Source: Myxococcota bacterium (GTDB taxonomy: Bacteria > Myxococcota_A > UBA796 > UBA9615 > JAKLKC01). Taken from it: 39,546 nucleotides of DNA. Made by a program: the position numbers and the translations under genes. Below, in pieces: positions 10,701 to 37,113 of the stretch. The stretch is taken from NCBI GenBank assembly GCA_023150875.1, contig JAKLKC010000058.1, forward strand, positions 1 to 39,546. The letters are read 5' to 3'. Numbering within the stretch: the first letter of the stretch is position 1; each line of letters starts with the position of its first letter. The notes under the pieces were generated by a model. The model saw only the letters and a program-made list of their open reading frames with translations, searched no databases and was not told the origin of the DNA.

Positions 10701-10821
10701 GCGCGATCACGGGAGCGCGATCACGGGGGCACGCTCACGGGGCACGATCACGAGGGCACGATCAGGGGGCGCGATCAGGAGGGCACGATCACGAGGGCAC
10801 GATCACGAGGGCAGAATCACG
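10701..10821. repeat. Tandem array of ~9 units, 13-14 bp, consensus GCACGATCACGAGG
   Basis: Units begin at 10701, 10715, 10729, 10742, 10756, 10769, 10783, 10797 and 10811, so spacing is 14 bp with two 13-bp units. Eight of the nine units start GCRC; GATC is kept in seven. Each unit is two hexamers (GCACGA, TCACGA) plus a GG pair. A related 20-bp array with one more hexamer lies at 36914-37064. The array is intergenic, downstream of the minus-strand lipoprotein gene and upstream of phoH. It is not CRISPR-like: there are no variable spacers. Confidence 0.9.
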
Positions 10822-10829
10822 TCTTCGCG

Positions 10830-10850
10830 CCCGCGCCCGTGCCCGCGCCC
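10830..10850 (-). other. G-quadruplex-type motif next to array 1
   Basis: The minus strand reads four G-triplets separated by three 3-nt loops (GGG cgc GGG cac GGG cgc GGG), an exact G3N3 quadruplex pattern. It lies between the stop codon of the upstream minus-strand lipoprotein gene and the GATC array, on the strand that would be present in read-through mRNA. Structure formation is inferred, not shown. Confidence 0.6.
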
Positions 10851-10888
10851 GCGCCGATACCTCAAGACCACCACCCCCCCCGCCCCCC

Positions 10889-12289
10889 TCACGGCACCGA
10901 CGCATCCCCGTCGTCCGGATCTCCCCCCGCCTCGGTGTACCCGTCACCGTCGTCGTCGTACCAGTCGGTGCCGTCGTCCACGGTGCCGTCGCAGTCGTTG
11001 TCCCTGCCGTCCGCCGCCTCGACGACGCCGGGGCTCATGTCGGACAGCGCGTCGTTGCAGTCCCCGGGGGTGGAGCCATCGGAGCAGGCGGGCCCCTCGC
11101 AGTAGCCGTCGCCGTCGTCGTCGGAGGCTGCCGTGCCCTCGTCCACGAGGCCGTCGCAATCGTCGTCCACCCCATCGGCCTCCTCGGGGGCGTGGGGGTA
11201 GGCGGACGGATCGGCGTCGTCGCAGTCCCCCCCCGCCTCGGAGTAGCCGTCGCCGTCGTCGTCGGTGGCCCCGGTGCCGTCGTCGACCACGCCGTCGCAG
11301 TCGTCGTCCAGGCCGTTCTCCACTTCCTCGGCGCCGGGGTTCACGGCGGGATCCCCGTCCCGGCAATCGCCGTCTCCCTCGTCGTACCCGTCCCAGTCGT
11401 CGTCGCTGCACTCCGTCCCCTCGTCGACGGTGCCGTCGCAGTCGCCGTCCACGCCGTCACACGCCTCCGCGGCACCGGGGCGGACCCCGGCGTCGGTGTC
11501 GTCGCAGTCCCCGGCGCAGGCGGAGATCCCGTCCCCGTCCAGGTCCACGGCGGCCGCGGTGCCGTCGCAGTCGTTGGCCCGGACCCGCACCTCCACGGGC
11601 ACGAGGGACGCGCCCGCGGCCACGAAGGTCAGGGGCAGGTCCACCGCCCCGGCGTCCACGGCGGCGTACGTGACCCCCAACTCCGCGACCCCGCCGGGGG
11701 CCAGGGAGAGGGGCCACCCCCCGGGGGGAACCCCCAGCCCCAGGACCCCCGAGGTCGTCTCCGGCACCTCGCCCGGCGACAGGGACACCGCGACCACCCC
11801 CTCGTTGACCAGGCCGATCCTCCCCTGGGCGGTGGCGCCGGGGCTCACCGCCCCCAGGTCCACCACCCCGGGCCATCCCGACACCCGGGCGTCCCGGGCG
11901 TAGCCTTGGAGCGACACCAGGAACTCCCCCCTCCCCTCGGCGGCCAGGACCTTGAGGGATCCCGAGTGGTCCCCCGCGGCGTCGGGATGGTAGGTCACCC
12001 GCACCGGCGTCGCCTCCCCCAGGGCGTAGAGGACCGCCCCGTCCGTCCACTCCACCGTGTAGGTCCCCGCCTCGGCCTCCACCTCCACGTCCTCCAGCAC
12101 CAGCGTACCGCTGCCGGCGTTGTGGACCCAGATCTCCAGCTCCGCGTAAGACCCGGTGGCCAGGAGACCGAAGTCCAGGCGGTCCTGGGACCCGTTGAGG
12201 TCCCCCCGGGCGCTCCCGAGGGCGGTGTCGGTGCAGCCCTGAAGGAAGGACGCGGCGACCGCGGCGGCCAGCGCCGGCTCGAGCCCCAT
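10889..12289 (-). CDS. Candidate separately translated Mopi-repeat lipoprotein (same frame as the giant gene)
   Basis: Within the giant frame an ATG at 12289 is preceded directly by a very strong GGGGAGGGGAGGGAGG tract and starts a typical lipoprotein signal, with lipobox F-L-Q-G-C about 19 residues in. The 466-residue product would have an immunoglobulin-like HYDIN/choice-of-anchor D domain (L-D-F-G-L-L, then V-T-Y-H-P-D-A-A-G-D-H-S-G), a second similar strand-rich segment, and Mopi repeats. Four repeats are complete; the last is cut after D-P-D-D-G-D-A-S-V, having lost the usual D-C-D and the H-P-G-A half. Internal initiation is inferred from the ribosome-binding site and signal peptide; there is no in-frame stop separating it from the upstream protein. 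Confidence 0.5.
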   Translation of the reverse strand: MGLEPALAAAVAASFLQGCTDTALGSARGDLNGSQDRLDFGLLATGSYAELEIWVHNAGSGTLVLEDVEVEAEAGTYTVEWTDGAVLYALGEATPVRVTYHPDAAGDHSGSLKVLAAEGRGEFLVSLQGYARDARVSGWPGVVDLGAVSPGATAQGRIGLVNEGVVAVSLSPGEVPETTSGVLGLGVPPGGWPLSLAPGGVAELGVTYAAVDAGAVDLPLTFVAAGASLVPVEVRVRANDCDGTAAAVDLDGDGISACAGDCDDTDAGVRPGAAEACDGVDGDCDGTVDEGTECSDDDWDGYDEGDGDCRDGDPAVNPGAEEVENGLDDDCDGVVDDGTGATDDDGDGYSEAGGDCDDADPSAYPHAPEEADGVDDDCDGLVDEGTAASDDDGDGYCEGPACSDGSTPGDCNDALSDMSPGVVEAADGRDNDCDGTVDDGTDWYDDDGDGYTEAGGDPDDGDASVP

Positions 12290-15200
12290 CCTCCCTCCCC
12301 TCCCCGGGCGCCGGGTACGGCGCCCCAGGGCGATGCCGACCAGGGCCGCGGCGGCGAACCCCGCCCCAGTGGAGGGAGCGGAGCCTCCACCCCCCTCGCA
12401 GGCGCAGCCCGTCCCGCCCTGCCCCCGGGGGACGAGCCCCTCGTCGATCTCCCCGTCGCAGTCGTTGTCCACCCCGTCCGCCACCTCCTCGCCCCCCGGG
12501 TGCGCCGCGGGATCGGCGTCGTCGCAGTCGCCGTCCGCCTCGGTCGACCCGTCCTCGTCGTCGTCCCACAGGGTGGTGCCCTCGTCGGCCTTGCCGTCGC
12601 AGTCGTCGTCCCTGCCGTTCGGCTCCTCGGTCGCCCCGGGGTGGACGCCGGGATCGGCGTCGTCACAGTCGCCCCCCAGCTCGGTGTACCCATCGCCATC
12701 GTCGTCGGAGCGGTCGGTGTCCTCGTCCACGCCGCCGTCGCAGTCGTCGTCCCGGCCGTTGGGCTCCTCGGCCCCCCCCGGGTGGACCCCGGGATCGGCG
12801 TCGTCGCAGTCGCCGTCCACCTCGGCGGAGCCGTCCCCGTCGTCGTCGTAGAGCTCCGTCCCCTCGTCGACGACGCCGTCGCAGTCGTCGTCCACGCCGT
12901 CGGGCTGCTCGGGCGCCCCGGGCCAGGCGGTGGGGTCCTGGTCGTCGCAGTCGCCGGCCTGGGCGGTGGTGCCGTCCCCGTCCACGTCGACGAGGCCCCC
13001 GTCCACCACGCCGTCGCAGTCGCCGTCCACCCCGTCCAGCACCTCCTCGGCACCGGGGTGCACGGCGGGATCGCCGTCGTTGCAGTCGCCGCCCAGCTCG
13101 TCGTGGCCGTCCCCGTCGTCGTCGTGGCACTCCGTCCCCTCGTCGGCGACGCCGTCGCAGTCCTGGTCGACCCCGTCGCACACCTCGACCCCGCCGGGGT
13201 GCACCGCGGGATCGGCGTCGTCGCAGTCGCCACCGACCTCGGTCAGCCCGTCGCCGTCGTCGTCGTAGCACTCCGTCCCCTCGTCCACCGTCCCGTCGCA
13301 GTCGTTGTCGCGGCCGTCGCAGGTCTCCGGCGCTCCGGGGTGGACGGCGCCGTCTTCCGGCCGGCAGTCCCCATCGCAGGCGGCGATCCCGTCGCCGTCC
13401 CCGTCCAGCTCGTCGGGATCGGCGACCCCGTCGCAGTCGTTGTCCGCGATGCCGTCGCAGACCTCGGGGGCGCCGGGATGCACCGAGGCGTCGGCGTCGT
13501 CGCAGTCCCCGGCACAGGGCGAGAAGCCGTCCCCGTCGGCGTCGAGGTCGTCGTCCACCGCGCCGTCGCAGTCGTCGTCGACGCCATTGCACACCTCGGG
13601 GGCGCCCGGGTGGACCGCGGGATCCGCGTCGTCGCAGTCGCCGTCGCACACCCTCCAGCCGTCGCCGTCGGCGTCGGTGGGGTCCTCGTCCAGGACGCTC
13701 CCGTCGCAGTCGTTGTCCAGGCCGTCGCACAGCTCCGGGGCCCCGGGGTGGACGGTGGGGTCCGCGTCGTTGCAGTCCCCGTCGCACGCCAGCCAGCCGT
13801 CCGCGTCGCCGTCGGGCGCGTAGTGGACGGTGACCACGTCGTAGGCGACCTCGTCGCCGGCCACGAGCCCCGTGGCGACGACGTCGTAGGTGCCCGGCCC
13901 CGGGAGCGTCACCGCCACCGACCACGCTCCCGACGCGGCGTCCCCGCAGCCGGCGACCGCCCCCCCCACCGACACGCACACCTCCTGGATGGCGCTGGCG
14001 ACACCACGGACCTCCAGGTCGGGCTCGCCGACGCAGAGGCCGGGGGTGGGCCACTCGATCTCCAGGGAGGCCGGCGAGGCGTCGATGGCCCGGGCCGAGC
14101 CGTCCTCGCTGCCCACCACCACCTCCAGGGACCCGTCTCCGTCGACGTCCCCGCCCCGCACGGACCGGACGGCCGAGCCGACGTAATACGACCACACCAG
14201 GGCCGGGGCGACGCCCACCTCGGCCTGGGCGACGTCCACGGCGTAGACCCACCCGTCCTCGCCGCCCACCAGCGCCTCGTCTAAGCCGTCCCCGTCGACG
14301 TCGGCCACGGCCAGCGCCCGTACCGCCCGGGCCCCGGGGGACGCCTCGGCGAGGAGGCCGCCGTCCTGGAGGTACACGGGGAACCCGGGCAGGGGGACGC
14401 CGTCGGCGCCGTTCCAGGCCCCGAGCCCGCCGTAGCCCCCCGCGAAGAGCACGTCCGCGCCCGGGCTGCCGTCGATGGCCGCGAGCGCGGTCGACAGGAA
14501 CGAGGAGCTCCGCGGCCCGGGGTCCACGTCCTCCCACAGGTCGTCGATGCCGGGCCCCGCCAGGTCGTGGGCGCGCAGGGCGTTGAGGGCGGAGTCGATG
14601 TTCCGGACCATGAGCTGGTCCACGTCGCCGTCCCCCTCCAGGTCCGAGAACAGCACCTCCGTGCCCCACACGGTGCCGGTGGGCTGGTAGACCAGAAGGG
14701 GGGCCTCCACCCCGGCGGTGTAGACGTTCACGAAGTAGTTGGTGGTGTAGACCACGTCCTCGACGCCGTCGAGCACGCCGTAGCCCGCCGCGCTGCCCAC
14801 GTCCACCGCCCCCAGGGTCAGCCCGGCGTTGATCGAGCTGCCCGAGGAGCCCCAGGCGCGCCAGGACTCGGCGCCGGAGGCGCCATCGAGCACCAGGAGG
14901 GCCACGTCTCCCGTCGACGCGCCCTTGATGGCGACGAAGGCCAGGTCCCGCCCCGGGGCCTCGTCCAGCTCGCCGTCGATCACCAGGTTGACCAGCAACT
15001 GGGTGTAGGAGTCCAAGGTGGGGTCCAGGGCGCTGTCGAAGGTCCACGCCCGGGCGAAGGGGGTGCCGTCTCCGTCGGCGTCGCCGGGGTCGTGCTCGTC
15101 GACGTGCACCCGGAACCACTGCCCGTCCCGGTCCGTCTCGACCCACACCACCTCGATGGCGCCGTCGGCGTCCAGGTCGGTCAGGAGGGCCGGGGAGCCG

Positions 15201-17149
15201 TCGTCGAAGACGTGGTCGGGGATGCCGTTCTCGGGGTGCGTGTAGAATCCCTTGCCCGACAGCAGTGCGGCGGGCTGGCCCGGGGCGGGGCTGGCCAGCA
15301 GCACGGCGGGGGTGGTCTGGGGGGGCAGGTCGAACCCGGGGGCGACCTCCGCCAGGGCGCCGTCCAGCACCGCGATGCAGTCCGCGGCCGTCATCACCAC
15401 GCGGCTCGCGCCCCCGGCGAAGTGGACGTCGGCGAGGTCCGGGCAGGCCTCCCGGTCCCACCAGGCCGAGACCGCGCCGGTGGCGGGGTCCAGGACGCCG
15501 AGGCGGTCCGCGTCCGCCACCAGCAGGTCGTCCGAGCCGTCCCCGCTGAGGTCCCCGGCGGCCAGGGCGCGGGTGTAGCCGCGGTCCAGGCGGGAGGGGG
15601 CCTTGCGGGGGGTCAGGTAGCTCAGGGGATAGGCGGAGGCGAAGCTCCACGCCTCGACCAGGGCACAACCGCCGCCCCCGCAGTCCAGCCGGAAGGCCCG
15701 GGTCTCGTCGAGGCCCGACTCGCCGTCGTAGGGGCGGGCGAGGACCTCGGGCAGGCCGTCCCCGTCGAAGTCGTGGGTGCCCACGGCGTAGTGGCCGGAG
15801 GCGCCCGAGGCCGGGAGCGTGGCGACGACGGCGCCGCTGGCGGCGTCCAGGACGAGGATCGACCAGGCGTCGTCGGCGTCGATGCCGTCCACGCCCACGT
15901 GGCCCTCCCGGTCCGTGGAGCACCCCGGATCGTCGTACATCGACAGCACCGCCTCCAGGGCGCCGTCGCCGTCCAGGTCCACGAGCCCCTGGGCGGGGGC
16001 GTAGACCTTCGGCCTCGTCGCGCACGAGGAGTAGCGGATCTGCCAGCGCACCACCTGGGAGGCGTCGGTGGTCCCCTCGGGGTCCGCCCCCCCGATGTGC
16101 AGGAGGCTCACGGAGGTCTCGTAGACCGTGTTGGCGGCGACGACGTAGTGCTCCTCGTCCCCGTCCCCGTCGACGTCCCGGACCTCCTGGTAGCCGAAGG
16201 AGTAGTCGTCCCAGATCTCCCGGGAGGGATCGAAGGAGCCGGTGACGGAGGCGCCGTAGTACACGGGGCCGCAAAGGCAGAGGTCGCTGTACCCCGTGCA
16301 GGAGGCGCCGGGGTCCGTGGCGCCGCAGGTCCACATGTAGCCGAGGGACTCCCTCAGCATGAAGGCGAACCCGATCCCCTCGCCGGGTCGCATCCGGCCG
16401 GCGATGACCTCGTGCAGGGTGTCGTAGCCCGTGAAGGACTGGGAGAGGCGGGAGGGGGAGGCCAGGCCGGTGCCTGCGTCCACGAGGTACAGGTCGAGGT
16501 TCCCGGTGAAGGCGAGGTCGAAGAACGCCTCGTCCCCCGGCACGCCGTCGAAGTCGCCCACCACGGTCTCGTAGGCATACACGCCCGCGGCCTGGGGGAA
16601 GTCGGCGCCCAGGGTGAACAGGCCCCCGGTGGTCAGGGAGACGGCCCAGATCCCTCCTCCGGGGTCGCTGGACGTGGCGATGGCCTCGGCGGCGACGCCG
16701 TCCCCGTCCACGTCGTAGGGGCCGAGCACGGCCCCCAGCAGGCGGCCCGGCGTCTGCCAGATCGTGGTGTCCGTCTCGGGGTCCACCGCCATGAGGGCGC
16801 CCCGATGGACCACCACCAGCTCCGGCGCGGGATCCGAGGGGTCGACGTCGAAGAGGAGGGTGCCCCGGGGGAGCACCGAAGTCGTGGCGCCGGGGACCTC
16901 CCACAGCAGGGACGGTTGGTGGAAGGAGTCGCCGGCGATCTCCCCCGCGCCCCCCACCCGCAGGGTGCCCTCCCGGGGGCCCCGGGGGTAGCGCCAGTCG
17001 GGCGCCTCGCCGCCGAGGGCGGCGGACCGCGGAGAGGCCGAGGGAGGCCCGGCGGCGCCGGGAGCACCCGGGGTGGCCTGGCAGCCCCCGAGCAGGATCG
17101 CGGCGAGGGCCCCGAGCGGGGTCGCTCGTGTGGGGAAGGCTGGATGCAT
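10889..17149 (-). CDS. Giant FG-GAP/Mopi-repeat surface lipoprotein frame (apparent fusion of two proteins)
   Basis: A 2086-codon frame. Start ATG at 17149 with GGGAG about 12 nt upstream. The N-terminus is a lipoprotein signal with lipobox L-L-G-G-C (Cys 23). Residues ~50-1000 carry many FG-GAP/VCBS-type calcium loops (D-x-D-G-D-G-x-x-E-x-V), predicting beta-propellers; an Ig-like segment follows near 1030-1110. From ~1112 to 1580 there are ten Mopi-type putative metal-binding repeats (D-C-D-D-A-D-P-x-V-H-P-G-A-x-E with D-G-x-D-N-D-C-D-G). A Cys-rich, TM and Arg tag then resembles MYXO-CTERM (about 1583-1616). The frame runs on without a stop into a new lipoprotein signal (Met 1621), a HYDIN/choice-of-anchor-like domain and four more Mopi repeats plus a broken fifth. 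Probably surface exposed and calcium binding; the function is unknown. Whether one or two proteins are made is unresolved. Confidence 0.85.
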   Translation of the reverse strand: MHPAFPTRATPLGALAAILLGGCQATPGAPGAAGPPSASPRSAALGGEAPDWRYPRGPREGTLRVGGAGEIAGDSFHQPSLLWEVPGATTSVLPRGTLLFDVDPSDPAPELVVVHRGALMAVDPETDTTIWQTPGRLLGAVLGPYDVDGDGVAAEAIATSSDPGGGIWAVSLTTGGLFTLGADFPQAAGVYAYETVVGDFDGVPGDEAFFDLAFTGNLDLYLVDAGTGLASPSRLSQSFTGYDTLHEVIAGRMRPGEGIGFAFMLRESLGYMWTCGATDPGASCTGYSDLCLCGPVYYGASVTGSFDPSREIWDDYSFGYQEVRDVDGDGDEEHYVVAANTVYETSVSLLHIGGADPEGTTDASQVVRWQIRYSSCATRPKVYAPAQGLVDLDGDGALEAVLSMYDDPGCSTDREGHVGVDGIDADDAWSILVLDAASGAVVATLPASGASGHYAVGTHDFDGDGLPEVLARPYDGESGLDETRAFRLDCGGGGCALVEAWSFASAYPLSYLTPRKAPSRLDRGYTRALAAGDLSGDGSDDLLVADADRLGVLDPATGAVSAWWDREACPDLADVHFAGGASRVVMTAADCIAVLDGALAEVAPGFDLPPQTTPAVLLASPAPGQPAALLSGKGFYTHPENGIPDHVFDDGSPALLTDLDADGAIEVVWVETDRDGQWFRVHVDEHDPGDADGDGTPFARAWTFDSALDPTLDSYTQLLVNLVIDGELDEAPGRDLAFVAIKGASTGDVALLVLDGASGAESWRAWGSSGSSINAGLTLGAVDVGSAAGYGVLDGVEDVVYTTNYFVNVYTAGVEAPLLVYQPTGTVWGTEVLFSDLEGDGDVDQLMVRNIDSALNALRAHDLAGPGIDDLWEDVDPGPRSSSFLSTALAAIDGSPGADVLFAGGYGGLGAWNGADGVPLPGFPVYLQDGGLLAEASPGARAVRALAVADVDGDGLDEALVGGEDGWVYAVDVAQAEVGVAPALVWSYYVGSAVRSVRGGDVDGDGSLEVVVGSEDGSARAIDASPASLEIEWPTPGLCVGEPDLEVRGVASAIQEVCVSVGGAVAGCGDAASGAWSVAVTLPGPGTYDVVATGLVAGDEVAYDVVTVHYAPDGDADGWLACDGDCNDADPTVHPGAPELCDGLDNDCDGSVLDEDPTDADGDGWRVCDGDCDDADPAVHPGAPEVCNGVDDDCDGAVDDDLDADGDGFSPCAGDCDDADASVHPGAPEVCDGIADNDCDGVADPDELDGDGDGIAACDGDCRPEDGAVHPGAPETCDGRDNDCDGTVDEGTECYDDDGDGLTEVGGDCDDADPAVHPGGVEVCDGVDQDCDGVADEGTECHDDDGDGHDELGGDCNDGDPAVHPGAEEVLDGVDGDCDGVVDGGLVDVDGDGTTAQAGDCDDQDPTAWPGAPEQPDGVDDDCDGVVDEGTELYDDDGDGSAEVDGDCDDADPGVHPGGAEEPNGRDDDCDGGVDEDTDRSDDDGDGYTELGGDCDDADPGVHPGATEEPNGRDDDCDGKADEGTTLWDDDEDGSTEADGDCDDADPAAHPGGEEVADGVDNDCDGEIDEGLVPRGQGGTGCACEGGGGSAPSTGAGFAAAALVGIALGRRTRRPGRGGRMGLEPALAAAVAASFLQGCTDTALGSARGDLNGSQDRLDFGLLATGSYAELEIWVHNAGSGTLVLEDVEVEAEAGTYTVEWTDGAVLYALGEATPVRVTYHPDAAGDHSGSLKVLAAEGRGEFLVSLQGYARDARVSGWPGVVDLGAVSPGATAQGRIGLVNEGVVAVSLSPGEVPETTSGVLGLGVPPGGWPLSLAPGGVAELGVTYAAVDAGAVDLPLTFVAAGASLVPVEVRVRANDCDGTAAAVDLDGDGISACAGDCDDTDAGVRPGAAEACDGVDGDCDGTVDEGTECSDDDWDGYDEGDGDCRDGDPAVNPGAEEVENGLDDDCDGVVDDGTGATDDDGDGYSEAGGDCDDADPSAYPHAPEEADGVDDDCDGLVDEGTAASDDDGDGYCEGPACSDGSTPGDCNDALSDMSPGVVEAADGRDNDCDGTVDDGTDWYDDDGDGYTEAGGDPDDGDASVP
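10900..11560 (-). repeat. Mopi-repeat block 2 (four complete repeats plus one truncated)
   Basis: Coding tandem repeats of about 43-50 codons, each with an acidic D-D-D-G-D-G-Y loop, a D-C-D-D-x-D-P loop, a P-G-A-x-E turn and a D-C-D-G-x-V-D-x-G-T loop. The final copy breaks off at the stop codon at 10889, about 40 nt before the G-rich tract and array. Confidence 0.8.
12287..12410 (-). other. Internal sorting-tag / lipoprotein-signal junction without a stop codon
   Basis: Reading on the minus strand, a G-C-A-C-E segment, a Gly/Ser linker, the hydrophobic G-F-A-A-A-A-L-V-G-I-A-L-G and R-R-T-R-R make a C-terminal MYXO-CTERM-like tag. Only about six more codons follow (P-G-R-G-G-R) before the ATG of a second signal peptide at 12289. 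The expected stop codon between them is absent in this frame. Confidence 0.75.
12430..13815 (-). repeat. Mopi-repeat block 1 (ten coding tandem repeats)
   Basis: Ten copies of the putative metal-binding Mopi motif, about 40-48 codons each, in the giant lipoprotein frame. The first five keep Cys pairs around the P-E-x-C-D/N-G turn; the later five replace the second Cys with V-L-D, Q-P-D, E-P-N or V-A-D, so the array has two sub-families. Nucleotide similarity between copies makes this stretch prone to recombination and to assembly collapse. Confidence 0.85.
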
Positions 17150-17295
17150 CGGGCTCGCTCCCGGGGACGTGCGTCAGGGATCATTGAACCCGGCCGGGCC
17201 GCGGGGGGGAAGCGAAGTCGCCCCGGCGCCTCCCGCGGAGCGGTACTCCGGCGATGCCCGAGTCGGGTCCCCACCGTCCTTCGGCCGACCCGCGA

Positions 17296-17323
17296 CGGAT
17301 GAAACGTGCCCGAATTCGGGCAA
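17296..17323 (-). promoter_or_regulatory. Candidate promoter overlapping a palindromic operator
   Basis: Minus strand TTGCCC (17318-17323), 16-nt spacer, CATCCG (17296-17301). The hexamers resemble the TTGCCC/TATCCT pairs upstream of phoH and moxR. The -35 box and the start of the spacer fall inside the palindrome at 17307-17322. Transcription would give a leader of roughly 145 nt before the ATG at 17149. The -10 box is weak. Confidence 0.3.
17307..17322. promoter_or_regulatory. Perfect 16-nt palindrome, possible operator
   Basis: TGCCCGAATTCGGGCA is identical to its reverse complement. It is flanked by direct copies of CCTTCGGCCGA 18 nt to the left and 11 nt to the right. The continuous symmetry fits a homodimeric repressor site better than a terminator, since there is no loop and no T-run. 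No regulator gene is adjacent. Confidence 0.45.
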
Positions 17324-17352
17324 GATCCGGGCGCCTTCGGCCGAGCTTCTTG

Positions 17353-18510
17353 TTAGACTGGCCGGACGAGGTGCCGGAGCGCCTGGGTCAGGCCGTCGAG
17401 GGTCAGGGGGAACATGGGGTGGACGGCGCGGATCGCCGCCACCGTGGTGTGGTTCCAGAAGCGGGGGTCGTCGGGGTTCAGCCAGACGGTGCGGCGGAAG
17501 TGGGTGCGGAAGCGGCGGAGCCAGTCGATCCCCGTGACGTGGACGCGACCGTCACCCTCGTAGCCGCCTCCCGCCGCCAGCTCCCAAGGGGCCATGCAGG
17601 CGTCGCCCACGAACACCACCTTCCACTCCGGGGACAGCTCCCGCAGGACGTCCTCGGTGGGCACGCCCCGGTACGTCTCGATATCGGTGTAGACCTTGCG
17701 GTACACGCAGTTGTGGAAGAAGTAGTACCGGAACTCCTTCCAGTGGTCGGACTGGTGGGCGGCGGTGAACAGGCGGCTGACCAGCTCGGCGTGGGGCGCC
17801 ATGGAGCCCCCGGCGTCCATCAGCAGGAGCAGCCGCACCCGGTTGCGCCGGGAGGGACGGAAGTCGAGGTCGATGTCCCCGGCGTTGTCGGCGGTGCGCC
17901 GCACGGTACCGTCCAGGTCCAGCTCCAGGTCCCCCTCCCGGGCCAGGCGCCGCAGGCGGCGGAGGGCGACGCGGAACTGGCGAACGTCGATGGCGACGTC
18001 GGTGCGGTAGTTGCGGAACTGCCGGCCCTCCGCCAGCGCCATGGCGGTGCGGCCTCCCCCGCCCGCGACCTGGATCCCCATGGGGTTCCGCCCCCCGGTG
18101 CCGAAGGGGCTGGTGCCCCCGGTGCCGATGAACCGGCTGCCCCCATCGTGCCTCTCGGTCTGGCGCTCCAGCATCTCCTGGAAACGCTTCTTGACCTCCT
18201 CCAGGCTCATCCCGGTCATCTGGGCCACCTGGTCCTCGGAGATCCCCCCCGGCACCGGCTCCTCGAGCCACTTCCGGATCGCCTCCTTGATCTCCGGGGG
18301 CGGCGCGGCGTCGTGGAAGACCTCGGCGAAGGCCAGGTCCCAGGCGTCGTAGTGCCCCTCGGTCTTCACCAGGACGGCCCTGCCGACGGTGTAGAGGGAG
18401 TCGAGGTCCTGGATGACGCCCTGGCGGAGCGCCTCGCAGAGGGCGTCCCACTCGATGGGTCCCACCGGGACGCGCTGCCTCCTCAGGGCGTAGAGCAGGT
18501 CGAGGAACAC
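17353..18510 (-). CDS. CoxE-like VWA domain protein
   Basis: About 385 residues, cytoplasmic, no signal peptide or TM helix. The N-terminal half is helical (F-L-D-L-L-Y-A-L-R-R start), with a Gly-rich linker around 120-160. The C-terminal half is a von Willebrand A domain with a MIDAS variant D-A-G-G-S (232-236) in place of D-x-S-x-S; the second metal site is less clear. Proteins of this kind pair with MoxR ATPases to insert metals or remodel partner complexes. The start is GTG at 18510 with GGAGG five nt upstream; the moxR gene ends 18 nt before, so the two are co-transcribed. The target is not evident from this window. The client may lie outside. Confidence 0.85.
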   Translation of the reverse strand: MFLDLLYALRRQRVPVGPIEWDALCEALRQGVIQDLDSLYTVGRAVLVKTEGHYDAWDLAFAEVFHDAAPPPEIKEAIRKWLEEPVPGGISEDQVAQMTGMSLEEVKKRFQEMLERQTERHDGGSRFIGTGGTSPFGTGGRNPMGIQVAGGGGRTAMALAEGRQFRNYRTDVAIDVRQFRVALRRLRRLAREGDLELDLDGTVRRTADNAGDIDLDFRPSRRNRVRLLLLMDAGGSMAPHAELVSRLFTAAHQSDHWKEFRYYFFHNCVYRKVYTDIETYRGVPTEDVLRELSPEWKVVFVGDACMAPWELAAGGGYEGDGRVHVTGIDWLRRFRTHFRRTVWLNPDDPRFWNHTTVAAIRAVHPMFPLTLDGLTQALRHLVRPV

Positions 18511-18528
18511 GCCGCCCTCCCCGGTCTG

Positions 18529-19368: not shown

Positions 19369-19443
19369 GGGGTGCACCGGAGGGAGGGCCGCCGGGGAGG
19401 GACCCCCGGAGACGGCGGGTGAATGGCTGTTCATTCAGGCCCC

Positions 19444-19472
19444 AGGATAGTGCTGGCCCGGCTCCCGGGCAA
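19444..19472 (-). promoter_or_regulatory. Candidate promoter of the moxR-VWA pair
   Basis: Minus strand TTGCCC (19467-19472), 17-nt spacer, TATCCT (19444-19449): the same hexamers and spacing as the candidate phoH promoter. It points away from the plus-strand promoter of the DnaK-like gene, so this is a divergent promoter region. Confidence 0.5.
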
Positions 19473-19508
19473 CCTCGTTCGCCGCGGGGAGGAGCGCCTC
19501 GGAACGCG

Positions 19509-19538: not shown

Positions 19539-19643
19539 CCGCGGGCGAAGGGCGGGGTATCCGGCAGTATTCCGGCGGGTTGGGGTCCGGAGATCGCCGG
19601 GTCGGGTGCCGCGACACGCGGGCCCGGGCCGCGCTGGGACATC

Positions 19644-28742: not shown

Positions 28743-28790
28743 GGGCTCCTCGGGGATCGGGCGGCTGGGGCGCCCCGGCGGGGTCGTGGA

Positions 28791-30401: not shown

Positions 30402-33400
30402 CGGACCAGCTCCTCGTAGTACTCGCCGTTGAGGCGGCGGTACGCGTCGGGGGCGTCTTCGGTGGCGCCCTCCATCACCGCCCGCCGGAACTCCTCGGGG
30501 CCCAGGAACTCCTCGGGCCGGGGGAGCTCGACGTCGTCGCCGTCGGTCCTCCCCCACTGGCCGTCGAAGTAGGAGCCATACCGCGGCGCGCCTCCCCCTC
30601 GGGAGCCCCCTCCCCTCCGCATCGCCCGGGCCACCTCGTCCCGGGCGGTCTCCACGTCCCGGCGGAACTCCCGGATCTGCTCCAGCGCCTGCTCCTGGGA
30701 ACGCCCCGACCGGCGGGGGCTTCCCTCCTCCAGGTCCTCGGCCGCGGACTCCATCAGCCGGCCGGCGTCGTCCAGGCGCTGGCGCCCCCGGGCTCCGTCC
30801 ATCAGGGGCGCCCGGGAGGCGCCCTCCATCTCCTGGCGCAGGCCCGCGACCCGGTCCTTCAGGCCCCTCTGCCCCGAGGCGGCGCCGGCCCCGGCCTCCG
30901 CCGCCTGGGCGCGCCGCTCCCTCTCGCGGCTCCCCTCCCCCTCCAGCATCTCCAGGACCTCCCGGTTGTCGGCTACCGCTTGATCCAGTTGGGATGCGGC
31001 CTTCCTGCCCGAGGGACTGGCCGCTCCCATGCGCCCGTCCTGCCCGAAGGAGTCCAGCAGGGAATCGGCGTCGGCGAGCTCGTCCAGGCTGGCCCGGGCC
31101 TCCCCCCGCGCCCCGGCCCCGTCCCCCTGCGCCGCCGCCTCCCTCGCCCGCCGCACCGAGTCCCGGGCTCGGCGCACCCGGGCCGTGACCGCCCGGCGGA
31201 GGGACTCCTCGATCCCGCCGGCCCCCTCGGACAGCTCCGAGAGCTTCTCCCCCAGCTCGGCCAGGCGGCGCTCCGCTTGTTGGAGGGCGGCCTCGGGGGC
31301 GGCCTCGCCAAAGCGGCGCCGCACCTCGTCGGTGCGGCGCATGACCTCCTCCTGGCCCCTCTCAAGTTCCCGCGCCCTCGCGGCGAGGCGGTCCAGGCGC
31401 TCGACCTGCTCCCTGCCGTCCCGTCCCCCCGTGCCCGCCCCCATCTCCTCGAGGTTCCCCTCGGCCTTGGCCAGCAGCTCCGACATGGCCTTCATGCGCT
31501 CCGCGGCCTCGGCGAAGCGCCCCTGCTCGATCAGCGCGCGGATCCCGTCCAGGTCCAGCCTCCGGGCCTCCTCCAGCTCCGGGTTGACGTATTCGTCCCC
31601 GGGGCCCTCCCGGGCCTGGGTTTGGAGGCGGGCCATCTCGGCGAGCTGGCGCTGGAGCTCCTTCAGGGCCTTCTCCAGTGCCGCCTTGTCCCCCTTGCCC
31701 CCCTTCGCGGCGTCCAGGGCCTTCATCAGGTCGTCCATGGACTCCCTGGCCTGCCGGGTGCGGGTGAGCAGCTCGTCCATCACCTGCTCGCCCATGAGGC
31801 GGTCCAGGGCCAGCACCGCCCGCTCCAGCTCGGCGATCAGGTCGGACTGCTTCGCCAGGAGCCCCGTCGGCGCACCGGGGCGCCGGAGCGCTCCTCCAGG
31901 GCGGATCTCCTGCTCGAAGTACCCGTCCAGGGAGTCCCAGGTCCGGGCCAGGGCGTCGAGGGTGGCGCCGATCTCGGCCACCGACAGGTCCCGCTCCATG
32001 GAGTCCTCCCGCACGGCCCCGATCAGCGTCGCCCCCGTACGGAACGCCGCCGTCGCCTGCTCCCGGTTGCGGGCGTGCCGCTGCGCGGCCCCCTCGAAGT
32101 CGAGGCCCCGCCAGCCGTCGTCGTGCTGCTCCAGGTGGTCCCCCAGGAGGCCGATGAGGGTCTCCTTGAGCTTCTCCTTCAGCGCGAGGACCTGGCGGTG
32201 GTGGTCCGCGGGGGTCAGGACGTGGACCCGGAGCGGGGCGCTCCGGGTCACCTTCGGCCCGGAGACGGTGTCGTTGTCCCAGGACTCCACGACGACGTCG
32301 AACTCCCCCCCCTCCGCCAGGGCGGGATCGGCCCCAGGCGTGAACTCGTCTTCGATCTCGGCGCGCCGGGTGCCGTCGTCCCATCGCCCCAGGGTGCGGC
32401 GCGAGACCTCGGCGCCACCCCGCAGGACGACGCGGTCCACCCGGGAGAGGCCGTAGTCGTCCTCGGACCGGATCCCCGCCCTCACCCCCTCCTCGGGCCT
32501 CATCTCCAGTGGGCCGGCGGGGCCCGAGACCTGGAGGGTCGGCGGGGAGTCCGCCACCACCTCCACCCGCATCGCCCGAGTCCGGCGCTCCGCCCGTCGC
32601 GGGCCGAGGCGGGCGAGGACCCTCCACGTGGTCGAGGCCTGTGGCACCGTCAGGGCCACCGACACCGCGCCGTTCCCTCCTGCCTCGGCCGCGAAGGGGC
32701 CGGCCTCACCGAGGATCCACTGGGGATCGGCCGCGCCCGGGGGGAGCCTCGCCCCCACCCGCACCTGGGTCCCCGGGAGGGCCTCCAGGTCCCCGGTGGA
32801 GCCCTCGAGACGGGTGGCGGGCAGGCCGGTGTAGGCCGGGGGGACGAGGTCCACGGTGACGTCGGAGATGGAAAGGTCTCCCTCGTCGCCCGCCTGTTCC
32901 GGCGCGGCGGCGGCGTCCCCGCCGGAGGGGCCCTCGCCGCCCCCGAGCAGCGCGCGGGCCCCCTCCGCGAGGGACTCGGGCCAGATCAGGGCGACGATCC
33001 CGAGACCCACGCCCCCCGCGAGCCCCGCCCAGGCCGGGCGCCGGATCCCCCGCCAGGGGAGCAGTCGGCCCGCGTCCACCACCGACGCGGCCCGGGCCGC
33101 CTGCTCCCTCGCCAGGCGCGCCAGCTCCGCCCCGTCGGCGTCCCCCGCCGGCCCGGCCTGGCCCCGGTCGAGGGCCACCGCGGTCCCCAGGGCGTCTCCG
33201 GCCTCGGGGACGAGGGCGTCCACCGCCCGCGCGACCCGCAGGTCGTCCCCGGTGCGGACGTAGGGCGCGATGAGCAGCCGCGCCACCAGCGCGACGGCCC
33301 CTGCGAGGGCCGGGGGTCCCAGCAGCCACGGGACCGCCGCCGCCGGGATCCCCGCCGCCCGGGCGGCGCTGGCCGCCAGAACCGCCGCCGACGCCACGGC

Positions 33401-33496
33401 GCACGTCGCCGCGGCGGTCGCCACCCACGCCAGCAGCCGGCGGCGGGCGCGGACCCGCCGCAAGAGCCGGTGCAGGGTCCCTCGGGGGTGGTTCAT
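30398..33496 (-). CDS. DUF4175 family membrane protein with long coiled-coil region
   Basis: About 1032 residues. Three TM helices (about 21-45, 53-73 and 154-171) frame the N-terminus; the Ig-like extracytoplasmic region is at about 200-420 (D-L-V-P-P-A-Y-T-G-L-P). From ~425 to 980 it is almost entirely charged helix, rich in Glu, Arg, Ala and Leu, predicting long coiled coils. This layout matches DUF4175 proteins, which lie next to MoxR/DUF58/VWA genes in several phyla. It is first in the seven-gene unit 33496-21510. The ATG at 33496 overlaps the stop of a tiny upstream reading frame. The gene stops in an ATGA overlap with the peptidase. Function unknown; perhaps a scaffold for the VWA/MoxR complex. 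Confidence 0.85.
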   Translation of the reverse strand: MNHPRGTLHRLLRRVRARRRLLAWVATAAATCAVASAAVLAASAARAAGIPAAAVPWLLGPPALAGAVALVARLLIAPYVRTGDDLRVARAVDALVPEAGDALGTAVALDRGQAGPAGDADGAELARLAREQAARAASVVDAGRLLPWRGIRRPAWAGLAGGVGLGIVALIWPESLAEGARALLGGGEGPSGGDAAAAPEQAGDEGDLSISDVTVDLVPPAYTGLPATRLEGSTGDLEALPGTQVRVGARLPPGAADPQWILGEAGPFAAEAGGNGAVSVALTVPQASTTWRVLARLGPRRAERRTRAMRVEVVADSPPTLQVSGPAGPLEMRPEEGVRAGIRSEDDYGLSRVDRVVLRGGAEVSRRTLGRWDDGTRRAEIEDEFTPGADPALAEGGEFDVVVESWDNDTVSGPKVTRSAPLRVHVLTPADHHRQVLALKEKLKETLIGLLGDHLEQHDDGWRGLDFEGAAQRHARNREQATAAFRTGATLIGAVREDSMERDLSVAEIGATLDALARTWDSLDGYFEQEIRPGGALRRPGAPTGLLAKQSDLIAELERAVLALDRLMGEQVMDELLTRTRQARESMDDLMKALDAAKGGKGDKAALEKALKELQRQLAEMARLQTQAREGPGDEYVNPELEEARRLDLDGIRALIEQGRFAEAAERMKAMSELLAKAEGNLEEMGAGTGGRDGREQVERLDRLAARARELERGQEEVMRRTDEVRRRFGEAAPEAALQQAERRLAELGEKLSELSEGAGGIEESLRRAVTARVRRARDSVRRAREAAAQGDGAGARGEARASLDELADADSLLDSFGQDGRMGAASPSGRKAASQLDQAVADNREVLEMLEGEGSRERERRAQAAEAGAGAASGQRGLKDRVAGLRQEMEGASRAPLMDGARGRQRLDDAGRLMESAAEDLEEGSPRRSGRSQEQALEQIREFRRDVETARDEVARAMRRGGGSRGGGAPRYGSYFDGQWGRTDGDDVELPRPEEFLGPEEFRRAVMEGATEDAPDAYRRLNGEYYEELVR

Positions 33497-33540
33497 CGAT
33501 GCAGCCCAGGCCCGCCGGCTCCGCCCGCGCGGTCGTCCAT
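33493..33540 (-). CDS. Possible 15-residue leader peptide upstream of the DUF4175 gene
   Basis: ATG at 33540 opens a frame M-D-D-R-A-G-G-A-G-G-P-G-L-H-R ending in a TGA that overlaps the DUF4175 ATG as ATGA. DUF4175 itself has only a poor Shine-Dalgarno, so coupled re-initiation is conceivable. No homology can be judged at this length, and such frames are common in GC-rich DNA. Confidence 0.2.
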   Translation of the reverse strand: MDDRAGGAGGPGLHR

Positions 33541-33605
33541 GAAGATAAGGCCGGTACCGACGCCCCGGGAAGCGCCCGACCCGACCCGCCGCCGCCGGGC
33601 CCGGC

Positions 33606-35234
33606 TCAACGCGCCCCCGCCTCGGCCCGGCCGGGGAGCCCCGGTGGCGGGGCCGAGAGCCGGTACACGACCGCCGGGAACTCCTTGGGGGACACCAGCA
33701 TTCCCTCCACCCGCCACTCCATCTGGGCGAAGAGGCGGGTGGCTCGGCTGTGCACGTCCCGGGAGGACCAGCGGTAGTTCTCGCGGTCGTACAGCCACCG
33801 CACGCAGCCGCCGTGCTCCGCCCAGGTCCGCGGCCCGTTCAGCGGGTCGAGGTTGAAGTGGGAGCCCGCCGCGGGGAGGCGCGCCGAGATCGACTCCTGC
33901 TCGCTCAGGACGTAGCACCCTCCGGCCGCGACGTCCTCCAGGGTCAGGGGGGTCTCCAGCGCTTCGGGGGGGATCTCCGCCAGGAAGACGGCGTCGTCGG
34001 CGTAGTAGCGGTGGGCTACCCGCTCCAGGTCCCGGGCCAGGGGGATCCCCAGCCCGAGCACCGCCCCCCCGGCCAGGGCCGTCGCCACGACGCGCGCCCT
34101 CCCGCCCCGCGCCCCCGCCAGGGTCCGGGCGGCGGCCCCCACCGCGGCTCCGGCGATCACGCAAAGCCCCGTCGCCCCGGCGAGGGCGTGGCGGGGGGCG
34201 AAGTCGTTGAACGTGGACAGGGCGAGGTGCGGGATGGCCCACAGCCCCAGCGCCCCCACCAGGGCGCGGCGCCCCGGGGTCCCCGAGGCCGCGAGGGCGA
34301 CGGCCCCCGCCAGGAGGACCCCCGCCGCCGCGGGGTGGTGGAAGGGCGCGAGGAACGAGACGAGGCGCAGGTTGCCGGCGACGAGCCCCAGGAAGTAGGC
34401 GGCCTCGGCCTCCCCCTGCCGGTCCGCCACCGGGCCCACGAGGGCCCCGACCTGCACCGCCAGCGAGGCGACGGCCAGGGCCGCGGCGGGCACCCAGGAC
34501 CGTGGGCTACGCAGCGTGCGGGAGGAGCCCTCGGACCAGGCGAGGGCCCACGCCCCGGCGGGGAGGACGACGGCGGACTCGATCCGGCACGCCGCCGCCA
34601 TGCCCGCCAGCGCCGCCCCCGCCGCCAGGGCCCAACCCCCGCCCGCGGGAGCGCGGCGCGCCCCGGCCAGGGCGAAGACGAGGGCGCCACGGTAGAGCGC
34701 CAGGGGGAGGATCACGTTGTAGGCGGAGCTCGCCCAGAAGACGTGGTGCATGGAGAGGGCGGCGACGGCGGCGGCGGCGACGGCGGCGATCCGGTCCCGG
34801 AGCAGCAGCCACGCCACCAGACCCACCGAGACCGCCGAGGCGGCGGCGCACAGGAGCGACACGCCCACCATCCACTCGGGGGACGCGGCGGGCAGGGAGC
34901 CCAGGGCGCGGTAGAGGCCCCGCATCGCGGGGTAGGTGATCATGGGGTCCCAGGCCGCGTCCAGGGCGCGGCGACCGGTGAAGGCATCCAGGTAGTCCGC
35001 CTCGTGCCCCTCGAAGCCGTGCCGCTGGAAGGCCGGGACCCACCCCGCCGCCGCCACCACCGCCGCCACCCCCGCCAGCGCGAGCCCCGCCGCCCCACCC
35101 CGCCCCATCCCGGCGAGGGAAGAGGCGAGGTCCCGCCGGGCGGCCCACGCCAGCAGCACGGCGAGGGCCGCCTGGCCTCCGGCGGCCGCGTAGGGGTGAA
35201 GGGAGATCGCCTCCATGATCCCCATGGGATGCAC
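33606..35234 (-). CDS. Multi-spanning membrane protein, GT-C glycosyltransferase-like
   Basis: About 540 residues with ten or more hydrophobic helices across residues ~15-400, then a soluble C-terminal region of ~130 residues. A first-loop acidic cluster G-H-E-A-D-Y-L-D-A-F recalls the catalytic loop of GT-C/PMT-type glycosyltransferases, and a P-H-L-A-L-S-T-F-N-D-F-A-P-R-H loop follows late, similar to the group. I cannot name the sugar or lipid donor. Start: GTG at 35234 directly follows the kinase stop; an ATG at 35225 with AGGTG about 7 nt before it is equally plausible. It is transcribed after the histidine kinase gene and ends 109 nt before the DUF4175 gene. Confidence 0.7.
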   Translation of the reverse strand: MHPMGIMEAISLHPYAAAGGQAALAVLLAWAARRDLASSLAGMGRGGAAGLALAGVAAVVAAAGWVPAFQRHGFEGHEADYLDAFTGRRALDAAWDPMITYPAMRGLYRALGSLPAASPEWMVGVSLLCAAASAVSVGLVAWLLLRDRIAAVAAAAVAALSMHHVFWASSAYNVILPLALYRGALVFALAGARRAPAGGGWALAAGAALAGMAAACRIESAVVLPAGAWALAWSEGSSRTLRSPRSWVPAAALAVASLAVQVGALVGPVADRQGEAEAAYFLGLVAGNLRLVSFLAPFHHPAAAGVLLAGAVALAASGTPGRRALVGALGLWAIPHLALSTFNDFAPRHALAGATGLCVIAGAAVGAAARTLAGARGGRARVVATALAGGAVLGLGIPLARDLERVAHRYYADDAVFLAEIPPEALETPLTLEDVAAGGCYVLSEQESISARLPAAGSHFNLDPLNGPRTWAEHGGCVRWLYDRENYRWSSRDVHSRATRLFAQMEWRVEGMLVSPKEFPAVVYRLSAPPPGLPGRAEAGAR

Positions 35235-36848
35235 CTACCCTCGGACCCCCGCGACGGTCGCCACGGCGGAGAGATCCGCCGCCCCTTCCGGGGTGGCCTT
35301 CCCGGGCCCGGGATCCCGCACGGCGGGCAGGAGCAGCTCGAAGCGGGCGCCACCCCCCTCCACCGGGAGGAGGCGCAGCCGGCCACCGAACCCCTCGACG
35401 ATGCCCGCGGACACCGACAGCCCCAGGCCCGTGCCGGCCCCGGGCTCCTTGGTGGTGAAGAAGGGCTCGAAGACCCGGTCCCCCACTTCGGCGGGGATCC
35501 CCGGTCCGTCGTCGGCCACCTGGACCCGGACGTTGCCGTCCTGGCTCTCCCCCGTGACCTCGACGCGTCCCCCGGGCCCCGCGGCGTCGGCGGCGTTCAG
35601 GAAGAGGTTGAGGAGCACCTGGCGCAGGCGCGCCTCGTCGGCGAAGGCGGGGGGGAGGTCCGGGGCGAGCCGGACGTCGAAGGCCAGGGACTCCCCCCGG
35701 GGCTGGGCGAGCACCAGGTCCCGGGCCGAGGCCACCGCGGCGGCGACGTCCACCGGGCGCATGGGGACCGGCTCGGCACGGGCGTGGTCCAGGAGCTGCC
35801 CGACGATGCCGTGGATCCGCTGCAGCTCCTGGTGGATCCGGGACACCAGGTCCCGCCGCATCTCGGGATCGTCCTCGACCTGGGGGAGCAGCTCGGCGAA
35901 GCCCAGGAGGGCCGCCAGCGGGTTCCCGACCTCGTGGGCCACGCCGGCGGCCAGGCGCCCCACCGACGCCATCTTCTCGCTGTGGACCAGCTCCTGCTGC
36001 GTCCGCACGAGGGCGGCGTTGACCTCCCTCAAGTCCCGCACCTGGTCCTCGACCCGGGCCCGGTAGGCGGACAGGGCTTCGGCCATCCGGTTGAAGGCCC
36101 GGGAGACGTCCCCGAGCTCGTCGTCCCGGGTCTCGGGGATCCGGGCGTCGAAGCCGCCCCGGGCGATCCTCGCGGTACCGTCCCGCAGGAGGGCGAGGGG
36201 CCTGAGGATCAGCCCCCGGAACTGGTGGAAGCCGAAGCCCGCGATCACCGCCACGGCGAGGGCGCTGTAGGCGGCGAGCACCAGCAGGGAGCGGGCCGGG
36301 GCCGCGCCGAGCCCCCCGGCCGCCACCCTCACCCTCACCACGCCGGCGGGGCGTCCCTGGCGGAGCAGGGGGAGGGAGAGGGCCAGGGAGCGCCGCTCCA
36401 AGGGAAAGGTCCCCTCCCGGACGAGGGCGATGGCCGCCTTCCGCGAGATCAGGGCCTCCCGCGCGTCCTCCATCGCCAGGAGCCACCCGGTGCGGCTCGC
36501 GGGGTCCCGGGGCACCCCGTCCCCGGAGCCGGCGAGGAAGCGGAGGCCGGGATCGACCACCAGGACCTCCAGCACGCCCAGGTCGGCGGGCCGGATGTCC
36601 GCGAGGCCGCCCTCCGCCTCGGCCTGGGTGATGGTGCCCACGCCGGGGTTGGCGAGGATCCGGGCGGCGACCAGGCGCGCCACCGAGGCGGCGGCCTCCT
36701 CCCGGCGGCCCTCCCGGACGGGGTCCAGGGCGAGCCACACCACCACCGCCGAGAGGGCGATGGCGATGCCCGTCAGGAAGGCGAGGTTTAGGGCGATCTC
36801 GACCCAGAGGCCGCCGCGGCGGCGCCCCGACGAGCGCGGGTCCGGCAT
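35235..36848 (-). CDS. Membrane sensor histidine kinase (HAMP, HisKA, HATPase)
   Basis: About 537 residues. TM helices at ~17-42 and 188-207 frame a periplasmic sensor domain of ~145 residues. A HAMP region (about 208-265) is followed by the HisKA phosphoacceptor in G-V-A-H-E-V-G-N-P-L (His 305). The ATP lid has all boxes: N box N-L-F-L-N-A-A-D (about 414-421), G1 D-D-G-P-G-I-P, F box F-E-P-F-F-T-T-K, G2 G-T-G-L-G-L-S. The H-E-x-x-N-P form is the NtrB-like class. No receiver or response-regulator gene is visible next to it, so it is an orphan within this window; its regulator could lie elsewhere. ATG 36848 opens right at the helix; the extra 27 codons of the open frame are non-conserved. The signal sensed is unknown. 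Confidence 0.93.
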   Translation of the reverse strand: MPDPRSSGRRRGGLWVEIALNLAFLTGIAIALSAVVVWLALDPVREGRREEAAASVARLVAARILANPGVGTITQAEAEGGLADIRPADLGVLEVLVVDPGLRFLAGSGDGVPRDPASRTGWLLAMEDAREALISRKAAIALVREGTFPLERRSLALSLPLLRQGRPAGVVRVRVAAGGLGAAPARSLLVLAAYSALAVAVIAGFGFHQFRGLILRPLALLRDGTARIARGGFDARIPETRDDELGDVSRAFNRMAEALSAYRARVEDQVRDLREVNAALVRTQQELVHSEKMASVGRLAAGVAHEVGNPLAALLGFAELLPQVEDDPEMRRDLVSRIHQELQRIHGIVGQLLDHARAEPVPMRPVDVAAAVASARDLVLAQPRGESLAFDVRLAPDLPPAFADEARLRQVLLNLFLNAADAAGPGGRVEVTGESQDGNVRVQVADDGPGIPAEVGDRVFEPFFTTKEPGAGTGLGLSVSAGIVEGFGGRLRLLPVEGGGARFELLLPAVRDPGPGKATPEGAADLSAVATVAGVRG

Positions 36849-36854
36849 GGGGGG

Positions 36855-36860
36855 AGTATA
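36855..36860 (-). promoter_or_regulatory. TATACT -10 box of a possibly leaderless kinase mRNA
   Basis: Minus strand TATACT (5 of 6 consensus) ends six nt before the A of the kinase ATG at 36848. The intervening bases are all C on that strand and there is no Shine-Dalgarno. This spacing would put the transcription start at or next to the ATG. No good -35 box is visible. Confidence 0.45.
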
Positions 36861-36913
36861 GCGGTTGCCCCGGAGCTGGCGGGTTGGCGGGGGGACGGAG
36901 AGGTGGATCGGAG

Positions 36914-37064
36914 GCACGAACACGATCACGGCGGCACGAACACGATCACGACGGCACGAACACGATCACGACGGCACGAACACGATCACGAGGGCACGGA
37001 CACGATCACGGCGGCACGAACACGATCACGAGGGCACGAACACGATCACGAGGGCACGTTCACG
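36914..37064. repeat. Tandem array of 7.5 units of 20 bp, consensus GCACGAACACGATCACGRSG
   Basis: Units start at 36914, 36934, 36954, 36974, 36994, 37014 and 37034, exactly 20 bp apart, with a partial eighth at 37054-37064. Changes are few: the last two bases vary (CG or GG), and one unit has GGACAC for GAACAC. Each unit is three hexamers (GCACGA, ACACGA, TCACGA) plus a dinucleotide, the two-hexamer unit of the array at 10701-10821 with one hexamer added. GATC occurs in every full unit. Same orientation as the first array. Confidence 0.93.
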
Positions 37065-37080
37065 TCCCCGGCACCTCGTG

Positions 37081-37113
37081 CCCCGCCCCCGTGCCCGTGC
37101 CCCCGCCCCTCCC
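37081..37113 (-). other. G-quadruplex-type motif next to array 2
   Basis: The minus strand has seven G-runs of 3-5 bases (GGG, GGGG, GGGGG, GGG, GGGGG, GGGG and neighbours) separated by 1-3 nt, which fits canonical quadruplex patterns in several registers. It lies between the stop of the FG-GAP gene and the array, the same order as at the first locus. Folding is inferred only. Confidence 0.6.

Follow-up and report, generated by a model that had tools for sequence, protein, structure and literature searches.

Intergenic DNA of a Myxococcota bacterium carries a family of tandem arrays built on a single four-letter core, CGTG (CACG on the opposite strand), which recurs every 6–8 bp between variable spacers of 2–4 nt and in many arrays ends at a set distance upstream of a -10-like promoter box. 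Two members lie in the 39,546-nucleotide stretch analysed here (the window; contig JAKLKC010000058.1 of assembly GCA_023150875.1), which is contig C134 of a 6.92-Mb genome in 180 contigs (G000). An initial annotation, made from the letters of the window, had described a composite element at two loci in which a stop codon, a G-quadruplex (G4)-type tract and a hexamer-built array of regularly spaced GATC follow one another. The arrays are better described as a family that lies upstream of promoters and has a constrained CGTG core than as that composite. Their anatomy is supported, and from it we infer a function: the arrays may be oriented protein-binding repeats that stand upstream of promoters and have grown by tandem duplication while selection kept the core. 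We favour this reading tentatively, at somewhat less than even confidence.

Both window arrays were confirmed as tandem repeats with Tandem Repeats Finder (TRF) and by reading the sequence. Array 1 (10699–10821, minus strand) is a family member with a best TRF score of 162 at periods of 14, 27 or 41; its 14-bp period comes with variants, and its CGTG lies on the minus strand, as does phoH. Array 2 (minus strand) was reported by TRF at 36913–37058, with a period of 20, 93% matches and a score of 250, and its edge was moved by eye from 37058 to 37064 (36913–37064). Read along the genes, both arrays run CGTGNN CGTGNN and so on, and the complementary strand gives CACGNN. The 14-mer of array 1 is two 6-bp units plus two bases and the 20-mer of array 2 three such units plus two, so that the initial view of one hexamer grammar at different periods holds.

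The gene context reported for the two loci is also correct. Each array is flanked on both sides by a minus-strand gene, with a MopE-repeat protein gene (10889–17149; Pfam and gene caller) preceding array 1 and an FG-GAP/MopE protein gene (37359–39023; Pfam and gene caller) preceding array 2. Beyond array 1 lies phoH (9530–10552, minus strand; Pfam PhoH at 4.6e-98 on the open reading frame (ORF) 9530–10642, with an uncertain start from the gene caller), and beyond array 2 a histidine kinase gene with HAMP, HisKA and HATPase_c domains in Pfam (35235–36848, minus strand). For the kinase the gene caller gave a start at 36929, inside array 2, and we adopted the ATG at 36848 instead. By consensus match, a -10-like box TATCCT (10622–10627, minus strand) stands before phoH at 71 bp from the edge of array 1, with a possible -35 element, TTGCCC (10645–10650, minus strand), 17 bp from the box; likewise by consensus match, TATACT (36855–36860, minus strand) stands before the kinase at 52 bp from the edge of array 2 and six bases before the ATG at 36846–36848. 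The intervals between array and box are treated with the flanks below.

That these are members of an interspersed repeat, one of the possibilities first raised, is borne out by a search of the genome itself, which found further copies at many places. We sampled 1.2017 Mb (17% of the genome), comprising 60 stretches from nine contigs and the window, at 73.7% GC and 89% coding, with 894 genes called by a simple in-house caller. The sampled contigs were drawn from match lists and hold 100 of the 226 three-core and 57 of the 127 four-core matches in the genome, so that array densities are inflated; for the whole genome we would guess at perhaps 35–45 array regions. The sample contains about 20 intergenic arrays of this one build. 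Chains of at least four CACG cores at 6–8 bp spacing occur 22 times in the 130 kb of intergenic DNA and 5 times in the 1.07 Mb of called coding DNA, against none in 20 dinucleotide shuffles, and the arrays are bacterial intergenic tandem repeats, with head-to-tail units between genes, well above chance. CACG/CGTG ranks first among all tetramers for such chains (22), followed by CCCG/CGGG (15), a tetramer that overlaps those units that have GG spacers. TRF, which is blind to the core, returned 30 intergenic tandem arrays, 23 of them with CACG/CGTG in the unit and 15 with CACG as the top or tied-top tetramer.

For the positional analyses we used a set of 19 arrays, whose edges were fixed on the TRF output, partly by eye, before a link to promoters was considered. 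The set leaves aside four arrays inside called ORFs (C77:19440, C77:100354, C103:159571 and C44:87136, given as contig and position) and the weak arrays C158:4928, C77:160-509, C55:80035 and other short rows. GATC, regularly spaced, had been taken as the defining feature; it is present in 7 of these 19 arrays and absent from 12, the constant being CACG/CGTG. The proposed protein-binding array remains the best guess as to role, though not through GATC. Some ORFs that overlap arrays may be miscalled. The ORF at 6673–7185 of the C158 stretch and that at C77:19402-21204 have N-termini that are translated array (VPVPVP, VLVLVL), and their real start codons are probably after the array; the called gene C44:86893-88338, of doubtful coding status, contains a CACG array at 87136–87247.

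Core and spacer differ sharply in how well they are kept. When successive copies were compared in 21 arrays, of which four lie in called ORFs, the CACG core mismatched at 65 of 1,514 positions (4.3%) and the spacers at 351 of 1,402 (25%), with the core rate below the spacer rate in 19 of the 21; in array 2 alone the figures are 0/152 and 16/100. The difference persists for one and the same base, G mismatching at 2.9% in the core vs 24.5% in the spacers, and the weakest core position is the A (9.4%). Within chains of at least four cores the spacing is mostly 6 bp (140 cases), then 8 (24) and 7 (18); the leading spacers are GG (41), AG (34), AA (24) and AT (20), and longer four-base ones include ACGG, AGGG and GCGG. 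Z-DNA was considered and rejected, by inference only, spacers that would give alternating purine and pyrimidine being rare.

The core/spacer contrast differs from the even decay of a neutral repeat, but duplication that depends on CACG microhomology could give the same appearance. This leads to the chief rival of the protein-binding reading, in which the arrays are neutral minisatellites: CACG-rich DNA would expand through slippage or unequal exchange in any place that tolerates it, namely between genes and ahead of promoters, and the core would survive as the microhomology for duplication, without function. We regard this as a real possibility, if an unlikely one. It fits the fact that each array has its own period, from 6 to 46, a sign of local duplication; the two arrays that lack the contrast (C95:81281 and C158:4928); the occurrence of some arrays in a 5' leader or inside a called gene; and flanking genes that are mostly unrelated. 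It does not explain why one tetramer recurs at about 20 loci, nor why G is eight times more stable in the core than in the spacers.

Position relative to promoters is the second line of evidence. TANNNT peaks 25–125 bp before gene starts, occurring upstream of 280 of 566 genes, and is therefore usable as a proxy for the -10 box. (Of the hexamers in the intergenic sample of this genome, TTGACA, TATCCT and TACATT rank with the most over-represented, a hint of the housekeeping promoter at 74% GC.) Beyond the CGTG-side edge, TANNNT lies at 47–71 bp in 8 of the 19 arrays, at distances of 49, 52, 52, 64, 65, 65, 67 and 71 bp, and five of these eight boxes read TANNNTCCCC; in two other arrays a box stands at 3 and at 110 bp. 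Random placement in the same regions puts eight boxes in any 25-bp window with P=0.0003 for random orientation and P=0.0010 for the observed orientation, and the best window on the mirror side holds four. Defining boxes from the gene start gives a similar picture: among 20 arrays (the 19 plus C92:78200), 16 CGTG-sense and 13 CACG-sense edges face a gene start, a box lies between in 12 and 7 of them, and it falls at 52–71 bp in 8 of the 12 CGTG-sense cases and within 45–75 bp in 2 of the 7 CACG-sense cases. Uniform placement over the 12 CGTG-sense rows, with available lengths computed by hand, predicts 1.66 of 12 in the 45–75-bp interval (P=2e-5 for that window, scan P=4e-5). At C142:8986, GATCCTCCCG was found by eye at 48 bp from the array. 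The fixed distance is supported by these counts, post hoc. Since many arrays keep such a distance from a likely promoter downstream of them, they probably act as switches of the following gene and do not mark the end of the preceding one.

In a partly independent check, the same tetramer stands out where arrays are missing. In 196 promoters without an array of the set within 200 bp, sense CGTG is the most enriched of 172 tetramers at 48–90 bp upstream of the box (49 of 6,771 positions vs 62 of 16,207; P=0.0007 unadjusted, about 0.12 if multiplied by 172), and CACG shows no enrichment in the same promoters (P=0.40). At least one promoter counted there, C55:80035, has an array that the set did not include, so this signal may partly be array remnants. 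Neutral expansion accounts neither for the spacing to the boxes nor for this enrichment, though degraded arrays could cover part of the latter. A further alternative would link the arrays and the promoters through DNA processing: nicking, methylation or replication stalling at CACG would make and spread the arrays, and the promoter and C-rich flank would reflect supercoiling or open DNA. The same core at independent loci and the promoter-upstream position are what such a putative process would give, but the eight best arrays stand 49–71 bp from the box, clear of the DNA that would melt, and we consider it improbable.

An oriented C-rich flank is the third feature, and here the initial annotation was right about the presence of G-rich tracts but not about their general place. 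The tracts named beside the window arrays, at 10826–10855 (minus strand; TRF period 6, CGCGCC) and at 37077–37113 (minus strand; TRF), both satisfy a G4-type pattern on the minus strand, and gene, tract and array follow one another in the stated order at both loci, with loose spacing: by coordinates, the distance from stop codon to tract is 38 bp at locus 1 and about 245 bp at locus 2. In the place first reported, behind the array and on the genes' own strand, a G4-type pattern occurs at 2 of the 19 arrays, both in the window, with about 1 of 19 expected (0.057 per random 70-bp window). The tract that recurs is found on the other side and the other strand. In the 60 bp beyond the edge to which CGTG points, on the CACG strand, 8 of the 19 arrays have a G4-type tract where about one is expected, and the other three combinations of side and strand give 1, 2 and 1 of 19 (array overlap excluded); the baseline is 0.049 per random 60-bp intergenic window, and 11 of 154 promoters without arrays carry such a tract on the same strand. 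This oriented flank, counted post hoc, is absent from 11 of the 19 arrays. In the window it is present at array 1, where the interval between array and -10 box (10639–10698) has the pattern on the plus strand and is C-rich on the strand of the genes, and absent at array 2, whose C-rich interval before the box (36861–36912, minus strand) is without a G4 pattern. Three of the eight arrays with the flank (C103:52956, C142:9461 and C158:33135) point at a gene 3' end, so the flank is not simply part of a promoter; it looks like a part of the repeat element itself. Neutral minisatellites leave this flank unexplained as well.

These flanks allow the 3'-end or transcription-insulating role once proposed to be re-read and kept as a rival, albeit a very doubtful one. 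A polymerase crossing the array would meet a G-rich template tract beyond it, stop, and so shield the next gene from read-through. The G4-type tract does lie on the would-be template strand beyond the array at the 8 of 19, and persists where it has no gene start opposite; FG-GAP/MopE genes precede both window arrays and that at C95:59271; and locus 1 folds better than its shuffles (z -3.37). Locus 2, which has no G4-type flank, folds no better than shuffles (z 0.21), which makes a candidate RNA hairpin or intrinsic terminator inconsistent between the loci, and neither 601-bp window region has a match in Rfam. Arrays also occur in divergent regions, where there is no 3' end, and insulation would leave both the CGTG core and the distance to the box unexplained.

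Among the 15 regions with chains of at least three cores, 8 lie between co-directional genes, 7 between divergent and 0 between convergent genes (2.17 convergent expected, P=0.075), with one further tandem array in a convergent region (C103:52962). The products of 20 flanking proteins are mostly unrelated and include a DHH protein, a peroxiredoxin, a sigma-54 activator, FliF, an asparaginase, LptE, DciA, a glycosyl hydrolase and a glycosyltransferase. For tests of neighbours we used 17 array regions, the 15 found by rule and two on C103 added by hand. A tie to the FG-GAP/Mopi gene family had been suggested, and FG-GAP/MopE 3' ends, from Pfam and a more sensitive search, do adjoin 3 of the 17 regions (0.69 expected, P=0.028); the other 14 do not, and two of the three are the reported window pair, the third being C95:59271, with 607 bp between stop codon and array. 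On any side, an FG-GAP/MopE gene flanks 4 of the 17 (1.79 expected, P=0.087). We take the tie as weak, not absent, because two of the three cases prompted the test. The MopE motif PF11617 is itself very abundant in this genome: of 978 first-look candidates 150 matches were scored, and those among the matches listed pass the cut-off.

Lipobox-like genes flank 7 of the 17 regions (2.91 expected, P=0.0115, from a crude pattern and as one of four tests). This would suit phase-variable promoter repeats, in which changes of array length switch or tune the downstream gene, as would tandem arrays beside promoter-like boxes, some of them near-perfect (CGTGCC repeated 11.3 times and an 18-mer repeated 5.3 times, both with 96% matches). 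Many arrays are degenerate, which would slow slippage, and we give phase variation little credence. Repeats of this kind are exemplified by Haemophilus hmw1A, whose promoter carries simple-sequence 7-bp repeats, with near-identical units at a few surface-protein genes. The likeness lies in short tandem units upstream of a gene and in a copy number that differs between loci; the arrays described here differ in their constant core and variable spacers, their many unrelated genes and their set distance to a -10-like box.

Among the relatives searched, this genome is the only member of its family, and the nearest belong to another family of the order, with phoH 56–58% identical. Of 377 genomes searched in the phylum, two contain the double 20-mer grammar, this one (8 matches) and G242 (one match, a homogeneous CACGGG run). 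Upstream of phoH, 28 relatives were compared, of which one (L139) is cut by a contig end; in none of the 27 usable ones does a CGTG chain in the 430 bp ahead of the gene exceed two cores, vs six cores here. A repeat family shared across the phylum, considered as a candidate, is therefore rejected. The absence of the 20-mer grammar from most relatives and of an array before their phoH is also what neutral minisatellites would give. Intergenic tandem arrays with the core make up 0 of 2 in G001, 1 of 3 in G008 and 5 of 14 in G242, small samples of 17, 26 and 53 kb of intergenic DNA. Looser CACG runs are common, with a four-core match in 36 of 39 genomes (this one included); where read, the relatives' matches are often coding-like, with homogeneous spacers and long open frames (by open-frame tests only), and some of the looser arrays in G008 and G242 are intergenic. 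Coding hexamer runs of this type (for example GACACG) share the CACGNN pattern of our arrays; they differ in their homogeneous spacers, in the long open frames at many of the loci examined and in that no promoter link was seen. Scanning a contig collection with the 20-mer grammar returned 27 stretches from varied taxa with one match each, records of the present genome possibly being excluded, and a viral scan returned 8 stretches, one with two matches.

Several arrays in these relatives have features of their own. G008 has CACGAG arrays with longer super-units, most of them non-coding by call; some stand at contig ends and may break the assembly. On contig C179 of G242, at 4037–4203, a CGTGCC run and, within about 100 bp after it, an oppositely oriented CACGGG run stand between a pair of minus-strand genes. 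The G242 sample also contains several intergenic arrays on a palindrome-like GGCGCGCGCGTGAGCGAGCGCC core with different linkers and periods of 28–46, a different, dispersed, hairpin-like repeat.

A limited search of the open literature turned up no description or name for such arrays, in agreement with the initial statement that no named repeat family with this build is known. The intergenic minisatellites of MIRU type (MIRU-VNTR) have units that are long and alike between loci. They resemble the CGTG arrays as interspersed intergenic tandem arrays with a locus-specific copy number and differ in that only a 4-bp core is common to the latter. Closer to the protein-binding reading are BldC-type operators. 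BldC is a small protein that coats direct repeats of variable number head-to-tail, the repeat being AATTXXXX(C) with 9 bp per subunit (PMC5859096). The likeness is that in both, direct repeats with a direction and a varying number lie in promoter regions, and BldC offers a model for the reading of arrays of different length by one protein; its site is 9 bp and AT-rich, whereas our arrays have CGTG every 6–8 bp. The core spacings of 6, 8 and 7 bp do not fit a BldC-type operator with 9-bp sites.

On the reading that we favour, of oriented protein-binding repeats, a putative DNA-binding protein that reads CGTG in one direction would coat the array and activate or tune the promoter. The array edge would lie at roughly -60 to -80 from the transcription start, which would suit an upstream activator. 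The repeats would grow and change by local tandem duplication while selection keeps the core, and the targets in the window would be phoH (array 1) and the histidine kinase (array 2), not the preceding FG-GAP/MopE genes.

A number of observations weigh against this reading. Within 45–75 bp, a box is found at 8 of 19 arrays on the CGTG side vs 5 of 19 on the mirror side, and any TANNNT within 130 bp at 10 of 19 vs 9 of 19; with counts this nearly equal, the promoter claim rests on the clustering of the boxes, not on their number. Eleven of the 19 arrays have no box at 47–71 bp, four CGTG-sense cases have their box 160–281 bp away, and three of four weak extra arrays (C77:160-509 and C158:4928 standing outside this check) have none within 124–130 bp. 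The distance pattern was tested on the same data in which it was noticed, post hoc, in a match-enriched sample of one assembly. The CGTG side faces a gene start in 15 of 19 arrays and the CACG side in 12 of 19, which is not significant, and neither is the -35 deficit that might have accompanied activator dependence, at least four of six matches occurring at 2 of 9 array promoters vs 64 of 196. The oriented flanks that point at a 3' end, the excess of FG-GAP/MopE 3' ends and the want of CGTG chains before phoH in relatives count on the same side. A 6-bp step is also short for one protomer per core, so that a reader protein would need to use every second core or have an unusual fold.

In its fullest form, the interpretation would make the family a genome-wide cis-regulatory system of one lineage, in which a directional CGTG array with its C-rich flank lies at a fixed distance upstream of promoters, is read by a putative oligomerising protein and serves, through its length and spacers, as a tuning dial for many unrelated genes; as a whole, we hold this to be possible but unlikely. 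If the promoter link is true, the arrays would be a natural case of bacterial regulatory DNA built by tandem duplication around a four-letter core, at many promoters in one lineage, and would offer a route to the reader protein and to measuring copy number against expression. If instead the neutral reading is true, they would provide a clean example of a core-preserving minisatellite family.

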